A DNA stretch of 64,000 nt, taken from assembly GCF_007995015.1 (NCBI RefSeq), contig NZ_VORB01000004.1, positions 1 to 64,000 on the forward strand, read 5' to 3'. Made by a program: the position numbers and the translations under genes. The stretch comes from Luteibaculum oceani (lineage in GTDB: Bacteria > Bacteroidota > Bacteroidia > Flavobacteriales_D > Luteibaculaceae). Each line of letters starts with the position of its first letter. Position 1 is the stretch's first letter. Positions 35,782-39,619 of the stretch are shown here, piece by piece. The notes under the pieces were generated by a model that worked only from the letters and a program-made list of their open reading frames with translations, searched no databases and was not told the DNA's origin.

Positions 35782-35801
35782 AATTTTCTATACTAAATGA
35801 A

Positions 35802-35827
35802 AAAGGCCACACCGAAGTGTGGCCTTT
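35802..35827. terminator. Bidirectional terminator between trxB and the Kunitz gene
   Basis: An 11-bp perfect stem AAAGGCCACAC/GTGTGGCCTTT with a CGAA loop, with T-runs on both strands (TTTTTT on plus, TTTTT on minus). It serves trxB on plus and probably the PKD-Kunitz transcript on minus, ending 55 bp past the Kunitz stop. Confidence 0.92.
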
Positions 35828-35882
35828 TTTATTGGTGCAATCCACTAAGTTATTTACAAATAAACATAGCGGATGGAATCCA

Positions 35883-36131
35883 TCAATCTTTACACAAACA
35901 AGCGCCTTGGCAATCGGCAAGGGTATTAAACGGAACCGTCCCCTTACATCCACCCCAAGTAAATTCTAGGCATTTATTTCGCTCCCTGCTGTAGTAATAC
36001 TTTTTAATCGCAGCTTCACAGGGTCCCGCATCGGGTTTTAGACTGCAACGCTCCGCTGGGCAATCTTTTACCTCCTTCTCACAAGAAATAAGTCCAAAGG
36101 CAAAGAACAAAAGTAAAACGGCTAATCTCAT
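35883..36131 (-). CDS. Kunitz/BPTI-type lipoprotein (possible protease inhibitor)
   Basis: An 82-aa predicted lipoprotein. The signal peptide ends in the lipobox GLISC (Cys17). The rest is one Kunitz/BPTI domain: Cys29, Cys38, Cys54, Cys62, Cys74 and Cys78 match the BPTI spacing (8, 15, 7, 11 and 3 residues between them; BPTI has 12 at the fourth gap). GPC, YYY, FTWGGC and FNT/ADC positions also fit. Two further cysteines (24 and 80) flank the domain and may form an extra disulfide. The P1 position after Cys38 is Glu39, where BPTI has Lys, so trypsin inhibition is unlikely; a Glu-directed protease is one option. The ATG overlaps the stop of the upstream PKD gene by 4 nt, implying coupled translation. 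Confidence 0.88.
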   Translation of the reverse strand: MRLAVLLLFFAFGLISCEKEVKDCPAERCSLKPDAGPCEAAIKKYYYSRERNKCLEFTWGGCKGTVPFNTLADCQGACLCKD

Positions 36132-39100
36132 TGTTTTACAATTCGCAATATTCCACGAGCCCCATTTTCAGCAATAATGTCTACAAGATATACACCTTCT
36201 GGTTGATCATAAAACTCAAGTTCCACATTGCTTTCACCAGATACCGCACGCCTTCTTACGATTTGTCCTAGAACATTTCTCAACTGAAGATCTCCGGTAA
36301 TTTCTCCAATATTATTTAGCGTAATTCGACCGTTATTCGGGTTGGGATAAACCTCGAGCATCCCCAATTCAAACAGGTCTATACCAACAGTAGTGCTATC
36401 GGTAACGAAAATAAATTGACAATTGGTTTTTGCCTCACCACACCCGTTGAAAACCGTTAAGCATGCTCGATATCTTGCCGTGCTATCTGCTTTGTAGGAA
36501 TAAGTTGGATTTCTTAGCGTACTTGTTTCCCCTGCTATTCCAAAATCCCAGAACCACTGCTCTGCATTTATAGAAGAATCTCTAAAGCTGTAGTTAAAAC
36601 CATCAGCGGTAGACTTGTTAAACCTTGCCACTGGATCATTACAAGAAATAACCACCGTTTCACAGTGCGAGACGGTTGCGCATTTATTTGTCGCCGTTAT
36701 ACAAACCTCGTATTCCCCTTCTCCCGAATAGCTATAAACTGGATTAACGTGATTGCTTTTGCCTCCATCTCCAAAGGTCCAGTTAACTCCACCAATTTGA
36801 TTTTTAACCGAACTAGTAAAAGTAACGGTAGTATCATCAATGGTGTAGGTAAATCCAACCGTAGGTTTCAAGCACTTTACATTAATGGTTTTACATACTC
36901 TGTCGCTTTCTCCACAGGTATTAAATATCGTTAGACAAACCACATAAGATCGGGTAGTATCATTTCTGTAGGTGTAAGTAGGATGCTGCTGATTACTCAC
37001 AACGCGATCAGGTCCTAGTTCCCATCTCCATTTTACTGCGTTAAGCGAAGAGTCTCCAAAAGAATAGGTGTAACCATCGCTTGTAACAAAATCGAAAGAG
37101 GCAGCTGGGTCATCGCAGGTAGCTGCTACTTCTTTACAACGGGTTACTCTACCACAATCATTTTGTGCAGTTAAACATACATTGTAAACTCCATCTTCCT
37201 CGTAAGCATGGGTTGGATTTAAAATATTGGTTGTAGTTCCATCTCCAAAATCCCAAGTAATATCTCCTAAATTACCCGTAACCGTGCTTGTAAAGGTTGC
37301 ATTGGTATCCTGGGTGGTAAAGGTGAAATCCACAGATGGTTTGTTACAAGAGAAACTTAATAACTGACAATCAACCGTGGCTCCACACTGGGATATGGAT
37401 GTCATACACACATTATACGAACCCGAAGCTATGTACTTGTGCGACACCGTCTTTCCTCCCGTGGTTTGCGTTCCATCTCCAAACTCCCAGTTTGTAGTAT
37501 GGGCACCAGGAGTAGTATTGGTAAACTTTACTTCTAAGGTGTTTCCTATCTTCTGGGAGGTGAAGGATGCATTAAAGTTACAATCAACGGTAATGTTTTT
37601 CGAAAAAGTTACGGTACCACATTCATTCTTGTATGTAACTGTAACCGTGTATGTTCCTGGGGAAATATATTCGTGCACAGGAGATTTTTGTGTAGAGGTG
37701 TTTCCATCTCCAAAATCCCATAACCAGGTTGTGGTAAAATCTGAAAGGTCAAGAAAATTCACTCTCAATCCATTATTAGAATTAGTAAATCCAGGTCTTG
37801 GTGGATTACACTCAATAATGATTTCCTGACATGAGATATGACTTTGGCATTGCAAACCAGGGTTGAACGCAGTTAAACAAGCAGTAACTGTATCTGGCTG
37901 CCCGTATTTATAGGTGGGCTCGAATTGGGTGCTTGTTGAACCGTCTCCAAAATCCCATAAGTATGAAGTTGCGTCCTTAGAGAGGTTTTGAAAATTATAG
38001 GTAAGGTTAAATCCAGCTGGAAAAAACTCAGAATAGGGCCCAGTTAGAATATCTGGAACAATGGTATCCGAATAATTGATACAAACACCGGCGGTAGCGA
38101 TAACGTGAATTGTTGGATCTACCGAAAAAGTATCAACCGACATTACGTTGGAACCTGAGCTTTGAACCAATTCATTATTGATAAAGTACTGGTAATTTGC
38201 AAAGTTCTTCGACGTTGTAAAATCTATGTTAACTCCTCTACATTCCACATAATTGGGAGCCATAGCATCTATGAAATCAACCCCATTTCTGGTATCAAAA
38301 ATTTCGGTGGGTACTGGTGCAGCGTGGATGGTAGCCGAATCGATATAAACCGTACCCGTATCTCCATTATTTGGAGGGGTTCCTTGCTGTCCATTTCCTA
38401 AAAGACCACCTAACCCACCATAAGCGGAAACCAATCCTGAAATATTTAAAGTATCAGAGAAGATTTTAACTCTTCCACCTCCACCTCCACCTCCGGTTCC
38501 TTCGGAAGTTCCTGGTACTTCTCCCCCATCACCTCCATCGGCACTAAGGTCGCCAGTAATATCAATTAAAGCGGCTTGTAGCAATGCTCCACCTCCGGCT
38601 CCACCACCTCCAGATCCATTGGGTGGATTTCCTCCAAATGCCGTACCCGCAGGGATACCCGCGCCACCTTGGTTGGCTCCTTCTCCGTTGGCTCCGTCGA
38701 CAATAAGTTCATTTATAGAAATAAAGGCGGCTCTAATTCTAATCGCTCCTCCTCCATTTCCACCTGCGAAGGTGGGCTCTTGTTGGTCGTTACCCATTCC
38801 AAGTGGATCGGCAATTCCAACAAATCCATTTCCACCAGCGTGTGCGGTATCAAGGCTTACAGCTTTTCTATCTCCCTGAGCAGTTCCTGGAGCACCTGGA
38901 TCTCCAGCATTATCTGCATCGAAGCCTGGAGCACCATCGGCTCCATAACCTCCACCACCTCCACCGAAACCATCACCTCCAGTTCCAGTTCCATTTGCAG
39001 GCGCTACAACAGATTGTTGCTCCCCTAATCCTGTTAAGTCTATGGTACCGTCGATTTTAACACGAGCTGCTGTTATGTTGTAAACGATAGTTGCACTAGC

Positions 39101-39580
39101 TCCCGTTAAGGTTACACCAGGTTGCACCTCAAACCAGTCTACATCCGTAACATCTGGTAGGGTTCCATCTTCATCGTAAATAGCCTGTGTTGGGAAAGTT
39201 GCATCGAAATCTTCAGCGGATGTTGCTGCGCTATTCCCGTAAAATACATACAAGGTAATTTCCGAACGAGCTCGGATTGTATCTGGATAATATGCCCAAA
39301 CTATGGTATTATTTCCTCCAGTAGGATTTTCAATCCAGTAATTTAAAAGTGAATCTCCATCACAATCGATGGAAACTCTTAAATCACCGTAATCGCTTCT
39401 TATTTTTCCGGCTGCTTCTAAATCAGCGCCGTTTAAAACAAAAAAAACAGGAGACTGCTCTATGTCTTCTGAATTGCTCTTGTTTTCAATCTTAATTTGC
39501 TTTCGCCACTTCCAAGCATCAAGTTGCCCAAATACAGTTACAGAAAAGCAAAATAGAATGGTAGCAAGTATAAACCTCAT
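36128..39580 (-). CDS. Giant T9SS-secreted protein: DUF2341, Gly-rich region, seven PKD domains
   Basis: An 1150-aa secreted protein. Residues 1-19 are a signal peptide (ending FGQ). A DUF2341-type lectin-like region spans about 20-130, followed by a Gly-rich region (about 195-415, runs such as GFGGGGGGYGADG). Seven PKD domains of 75-80 residues span about 515-1070, each with a W-x-FGDG or related motif and cysteines near the domain ends. Domains 4/6 and 5/7 resemble each other most. The last 75 residues are a type A T9SS sorting domain (VYPNPNNGRITL, ending RIVKQ). It is probably displayed on the surface or released; adhesion or polymer binding is plausible. A -7 element lies at 39612-39619, and the Kunitz lipoprotein gene overlaps its stop. 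Confidence 0.9.
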   Translation of the reverse strand: MRFILATILFCFSVTVFGQLDAWKWRKQIKIENKSNSEDIEQSPVFFVLNGADLEAAGKIRSDYGDLRVSIDCDGDSLLNYWIENPTGGNNTIVWAYYPDTIRARSEITLYVFYGNSAATSAEDFDATFPTQAIYDEDGTLPDVTDVDWFEVQPGVTLTGASATIVYNITAARVKIDGTIDLTGLGEQQSVVAPANGTGTGGDGFGGGGGGYGADGAPGFDADNAGDPGAPGTAQGDRKAVSLDTAHAGGNGFVGIADPLGMGNDQQEPTFAGGNGGGAIRIRAAFISINELIVDGANGEGANQGGAGIPAGTAFGGNPPNGSGGGGAGGGALLQAALIDITGDLSADGGDGGEVPGTSEGTGGGGGGGRVKIFSDTLNISGLVSAYGGLGGLLGNGQQGTPPNNGDTGTVYIDSATIHAAPVPTEIFDTRNGVDFIDAMAPNYVECRGVNIDFTTSKNFANYQYFINNELVQSSGSNVMSVDTFSVDPTIHVIATAGVCINYSDTIVPDILTGPYSEFFPAGFNLTYNFQNLSKDATSYLWDFGDGSTSTQFEPTYKYGQPDTVTACLTAFNPGLQCQSHISCQEIIIECNPPRPGFTNSNNGLRVNFLDLSDFTTTWLWDFGDGNTSTQKSPVHEYISPGTYTVTVTYKNECGTVTFSKNITVDCNFNASFTSQKIGNTLEVKFTNTTPGAHTTNWEFGDGTQTTGGKTVSHKYIASGSYNVCMTSISQCGATVDCQLLSFSCNKPSVDFTFTTQDTNATFTSTVTGNLGDITWDFGDGTTTNILNPTHAYEEDGVYNVCLTAQNDCGRVTRCKEVAATCDDPAASFDFVTSDGYTYSFGDSSLNAVKWRWELGPDRVVSNQQHPTYTYRNDTTRSYVVCLTIFNTCGESDRVCKTINVKCLKPTVGFTYTIDDTTVTFTSSVKNQIGGVNWTFGDGGKSNHVNPVYSYSGEGEYEVCITATNKCATVSHCETVVISCNDPVARFNKSTADGFNYSFRDSSINAEQWFWDFGIAGETSTLRNPTYSYKADSTARYRACLTVFNGCGEAKTNCQFIFVTDSTTVGIDLFELGMLEVYPNPNNGRITLNNIGEITGDLQLRNVLGQIVRRRAVSGESNVELEFYDQPEGVYLVDIIAENGARGILRIVKQ

Positions 39581-39611: not shown

Positions 39612-39619
39612 CAAATATA
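39612..39619 (-). promoter_or_regulatory. -7 promoter element for the PKD-Kunitz transcript
   Basis: Minus-strand TATATTTG, 31 bp before the start codon at 39580, in the 78-bp gap after the OmpA-family gene. No clear -33 TTTG is seen. It suggests that the PKD and Kunitz genes form their own two-gene unit. Confidence 0.45.

Follow-up and report, generated by a model that had tools for sequence, protein, structure and literature searches.

BPTI has one of the best-studied protein folds, treated as essentially animal, and the locus described here raises the question of whether a small lipoprotein of Luteibaculum oceani shares that fold, what it would do in the cell envelope and whether the large secreted protein encoded next to it is its partner. 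The gene encodes 82 residues and lies at 35883..36131 on the minus strand (start 36131, stop codon 35883-35885; assigned by ORF and Pfam) of the window, the whole 64,000-nt stretch of DNA analysed; all window features below are on the same strand. The signal peptide and lipobox, MRLAVLLLFFAFGLISC, are followed by the linker EKEVKDCPAER and then by the Kunitz domain. By sequence-based prediction, the signal peptide comprises residues 1-16 (36084..36131) and ends in LIS-C, and Cys17 (36081-36083), the predicted lipidated residue, is invariant in 37 aligned relatives, in line with the lipobox of the original prediction. The domain itself, located by profile, alignment and structure model, covers residues 28-78 (35898..36050), with Glu39 as the P1-equivalent and the signature WGGCKGTVPF.

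The profile search that had been proposed as a check gave a significant match of the ORF to Kunitz_BPTI (Pfam PF00014; E=2.3e-14, 53.8 bits vs a gathering cut-off of 21), the sole PF00014 match in the 2.92-Mb genome, while none of the NCBIfam models matched the protein. By phmmer, 107 distinct PDB chains were found at E<=0.001, and the 60 of them listed are Kunitz-domain proteins. The cysteine spacing, originally described as near-exact, is so in part: all six cysteines are present, spaced 8/15/7/11/3 vs 8/15/7/12/3 in BPTI (whose disulfides pair 5-55, 14-38 and 30-51), and the C38-C51 interval is one residue short, 11 and not 12. AlphaFold2, given the window protein aligned with 36 relatives, returned the BPTI fold, with a mean pLDDT of 82, about 90-95 for residues 31-80 (core above 90) and about 60 at the N-terminus. 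Searched against the PDB by Foldseek, this model matched Kunitz folds in all of the best 50 rows listed (TM normalised by target up to 0.87), among them boophilin, textilinin, TFPI, the APP inhibitor and BPTI, including 1t7c, a chymotrypsin-bound BPTI with a P1 Glu. As modelled, then, the lipoprotein carries a true Kunitz/BPTI fold.

Relatives came from an alignment-based scan of one genome per species (84,980 species) with the patterns WGGC and CxA(A/V)I, leaving the VPF loop out of the search. The scan gave 124 relatives, 80 of which were retrieved for analysis, and the full cysteine frame is present in 73 of these 80 loci. Position statistics were computed over 64 non-redundant domains in a fixed register that presets the 11-residue C38-C51 spacing. 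G12, C14, G36, G37 and C38 are invariant and A16 is kept in 60/64, and P1 is occupied by many residues (E17 K12 R9 F6 N5 D5 L5 M3 Q2). The basic P1 that is the trypsin-inhibitory hallmark (Lys or Arg at position 15) occurs in 21/64 relatives; the window protein has Glu, which suits the best-known S1 targets poorly and makes trypsin an unlikely target. A variable P1 between conserved flanks is consistent with a canonical inhibitor whose specificity has been retuned, but is no proof of one; as a unique proof of inhibition, P1 hypervariability is weakened by positions 6, 8 and 39, which are as variable. In the GxVPF stretch, P is found in 64/64 domains, preceded by V or I, and the loop is without the position-43 Asn of BPTI and the aligned animal sequences; in the printed PDB alignments, known structures need an extra residue here wherever the stretch is covered. 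The window domain has a further cysteine on either side, C24 and C80. Across the 37 aligned proteins, both extra cysteines are present in 15, neither in 14 and a single one in 8 (Fisher p=0.0009, with relatedness ignored), and this co-occurrence suggests a fourth disulfide in many members.

The fusions and gene neighbours of the relatives bear on function. One protein of a Nitrosopumilaceae archaeon (L136:7791-9311) has a Kunitz domain followed by a full serpin domain (E=5.6e-121), a lipoprotein-like protein of Methanophagales (L081:150-1466; a similar gene is in L071) combines one Kunitz with six Kazal domains, and in a Saprospiraceae genome (L143) a serpin lipoprotein gene (E=5.9e-71) is separated by 23 nt from the Kunitz lipoprotein gene that follows. 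As relatives are fused to or lie beside other protease inhibitors, the window protein is most likely a protease inhibitor as well. Another Saprospiraceae protein (L072) has six Kunitz domains, T9SS tails are found on the Kunitz proteins of L127 and L103, and further fusions involve DUF4377/DUF6438 and PAD domains. The upstream partner of the Kunitz gene varies by lineage (LVIVD, serpin, SurA-like, GH3, metabolic genes). In Flavobacteriaceae, an LVIVD-repeat lipoprotein gene lies directly 5' of the Kunitz gene in 11/37 upstream genes scanned, and most of these pairs are spaced by roughly -10 to +10 nt; the Pfam tally of these 37 genes covers 25 of 41 families, and single-member families may be hidden.

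Several loci are worth recording in their own right. An LVIVD lipoprotein gene followed by a Kunitz lipoprotein gene forms a conserved pair at L120:6728-8237 and other Flavobacteriaceae loci. A Flavobacteriales MAG (L107:6336-8309) encodes a Porphyromonas-type peptidyl-arginine deiminase domain fused to a Kunitz domain. Proteins of about 250 aa with an N-terminal Kunitz domain, a conserved second domain and a T9SS-like YDLLGR...KV tail are encoded at L013-L031, L061 and L062; in the one tested, L068, Pfam recognises the Kunitz domain only.

Taking the evidence together, we consider it fairly probable that the window protein is an envelope-tethered canonical serine-protease inhibitor, with a target that is probably not trypsin. 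It would be an outer-envelope lipoprotein with a mature part made up of a short linker and a single Kunitz/BPTI domain. The convex loop around C14 would mimic a substrate, placing P1 in the active site of a serine protease of the chymotrypsin or subtilisin type and remaining bound there. The P1 Glu speaks against a trypsin-like target and in favour of a protease that tolerates Glu, is specific for it or is unusual in some other way; this would most likely be an extracellular enzyme, made by a competitor, a predator or the bacterium itself. We counted against this reading the P1 Glu, the loss of N43, the variability of positions 6, 8 and 39 and the fact that the lone S1-family gene of the genome encodes an HtrA-like protease.

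Kunitz proteins that do not inhibit proteases are known from animals, and the domain could instead be a binding scaffold without inhibitory activity, as in Kunitz-fold channel blockers or in adhesion modules, and could for example hold a partner lipoprotein at the surface. The P1 Glu and the missing N43 would suit such a role, as would the conserved LVIVD pairing and the fusions to DUF4377/DUF6438 and PAD domains; however, serpins and Kazal domains are fused to or neighbour the relatives, and the flanks C14, A16, G36 and G37 are kept while P1 varies, and we regard a scaffold as unlikely.

Computation shows the fold, the lipobox, the clade, the overlap with the PKD gene and the association of relatives with other inhibitors; inhibition, target and location are inferred. 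The surface-export signal (LES) of Bacteroidota lipoproteins is acid-rich at positions +2 to +6, with QKDDE in Capnocytophaga, SDDDD in B. fragilis and SDDFE in F. johnsoniae (PMC5080379). The window protein has EKEVK at these positions, a weak match without K-(D/E)2, and several relatives start acid-rich with strong matches (CSDDDN, CDNEDD), making surface exposure of the family plausible as judged from these motifs. Besides the HtrA-like protease, the same genome has six subtilase-family loci, and it gave no match to serpin PF00079. The target may be internal or foreign.

We then considered the neighbouring gene as a functional partner. It occupies 36128..39580 and encodes a 1150-aa secreted protein with a signal peptide, DUF2341, a Gly-rich region, seven PKD domains and a T9SS tail; Pfam recognises seven PKD_4 stretches, DUF2341 and Por_Secre_tail, and the T9SS type A sorting domain (residues 1077-1150, 36131..36352) is matched by TIGR04183 (E=1.5e-9) and PF18962 (E=8e-8). 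The original description of this gene pair was accurate: the neighbour has seven PKD domains and a T9SS sorting tail, its TGA stop overlaps the Kunitz ATG by 4 nt (ATGA, 36128..36131), a candidate -7 element lies upstream and a putative terminator downstream. The former, TATATTTG at 39612..39619, about 31 nt ahead of the PKD start, matches TAnnTTTG, the consensus of the Bacteroidota -7 promoter element; with 29 such matches on the minus strand in 64 kb, the chance of one in the 78-nt gap is a few percent only. The latter is a terminator-like hairpin of 13 pairs with a T-rich tail (35800..35829), downstream of the Kunitz gene and probably shared with a convergent trxB-like gene.

It had been proposed that the lipoprotein could protect the PKD protein, or the T9SS surface, from proteases. 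In a specific form of this reading, the PKD/T9SS protein would be the one client of the lipoprotein, and the ATGA overlap would keep the two at a constant ratio. The overlap and terminator do frame a two-gene unit, and the LVIVD pairing in Flavobacteriaceae (11/37) means that tight coupling to exported proteins recurs. Short overlaps are ordinary for this window: of 32 pairs of adjacent genes on the same strand, one overlaps by 4 nt and three by 1 nt. Against a guarding role, a motif-based survey of the sampled flanks of 85 Kunitz ORFs (some loci duplicated under different names) found a multi-PKD gene, defined as an ORF with at least two PKD motifs, beside none of the 84 others, although a distant PKD could escape it, and upstream partners change between lineages. 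Within this survey the pair does not recur, the result set beforehand as refuting. A search of 60 relatives with the N-terminal 541 residues of the mature PKD protein gave nothing at E<=1e-10; this N-terminal half has one paralog in the same genome, at 32% identity, and no Kunitz gene lies on the paralog's downstream side. The paralog, at G000:C2:253500-259500 (L153:1618-4707), is the second large T9SS-type protein of the genome. A conserved pairing was rejected on the 0/84 and the missing N-terminal ortholog, and protection of the PKD/T9SS protein, unsupported by the survey and by a paralog standing without a Kunitz neighbour, is quite improbable. The pairing is unique in our data set and probably incidental to the L. 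oceani genome. The relatives searched all came from outside Luteibaculum's own family, so a pairing confined to close kin is possible; we take the overlap as ordinary co-transcription, not as a functional partnership.

Kunitz domains had been called rare in bacteria, and this holds for a phylum-wide sample (PF00014 in 6/395) and fails for Luteibaculum's order (64/399 genomes, 22/70 genera); 11/60 near relatives have the domain, and none of 14 control genomes does. The species scan found relatives in Flavobacteriales, Saprospiraceae, Cytophagales, Hymenobacter and Marinimicrobia, in Alcanivorax/Alloalcanivorax, an Arcobacter MAG, a deltaproteobacterial (Myxococcota) MAG and a Patescibacteria bin, and in the archaea Nitrosopumilus and Methanophagales; several of these are MAGs, so an isolated unexpected placement may reflect faulty binning. 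No relative of the protein was found in viral contigs or phage records. In a maximum-likelihood tree of 61 domains, the VPF domains are grouped across one branch (support 99/96), outside of which fall nine animal domains and a second prokaryotic group, GYSGC...GF (100/99); the tree rests on 46 columns, is unrooted with unresolved inner branching, and takes its animal domains from printed PDB alignments. By sequence, the window domain belongs to a prokaryote-only clade marked WGGCxGxVPF that spans Bacteroidota, Marinimicrobia, Alcanivorax, Nitrosopumilaceae and Methanophagales.

The second group (L005-L012, L041, L042), with a C38-C51 interval that is shorter still, consists mostly of small lipoproteins and is common in Luteibaculum's order. 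At L051:6908-7114, a Kunitz lipoprotein gene is broken inside the domain, apparently by a frameshift.

That the window gene came recently from a eukaryote and is functionally neutral or decaying, or that it is a contaminant, is very improbable and largely refuted, since the patchy distribution and the interrupted copy in a same-class relative (L051), which would speak for it, are set against a 303-kb contig, a genome contamination of 0.06%, a prokaryote-only clade (99/96) apart from nine animal domains, a normal lipobox, the operon context and the 22/70 genera of the order that carry Kunitz domains; eukaryotic contamination was rejected on the long contig, the low contamination and the clade.

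In conclusion, the Kunitz/BPTI family is known, and its prokaryotic branch is widespread and little-noticed; a search of an open-access library of papers found none describing such a clade. We put forward tentatively the possible generalization that prokaryotes own a BPTI-type branch, with a short GxVPF loop and often a fourth disulfide, which would act as a shield against proteases, anchored by lipid or displayed by the T9SS. In Bacteroidota, Marinimicrobia and archaea this branch would be combined with serpins and Kazal domains, and its P1 would be retuned to local proteases. If true, a coherent prokaryotic clade would bear on the history of the BPTI fold, indicate that conflicts involving proteases take place on the surfaces of bacteria and archaea, and provide new inhibitor scaffolds with unusual P1 residues.

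Compared with known systems, the PKD gene resembles the T9SS-sorted PKD/DUF2341 surface proteins of Bacteroidota in carrying their defining Por_Secre_tail, whereas the Kunitz protein has a lipobox and is without a T9SS tail. Bacterial serpin lipoproteins (PF00079) and Kazal domains (PF00050), fused or adjacent to some relatives, presumably share their task, but their folds are unrelated to Kunitz and serpins use a suicide mechanism. The closest likeness is to the Kunitz/BPTI family itself (PF00014; MEROPS I2; BPTI, TFPI, boophilin, SmCI), with which the window protein has in common the six core cysteines, the predicted fold, F33, G36-G37-C38 and the reactive-loop frame GPC-x-A. In contrast to that family, the window protein has a C38-C51 stretch that is shorter by one residue (GxVPF where the family has GNxNxF), Trp in place of Tyr at position 35, an extra cysteine pair, a single domain that is predicted to be lipid-anchored, and Glu at P1.
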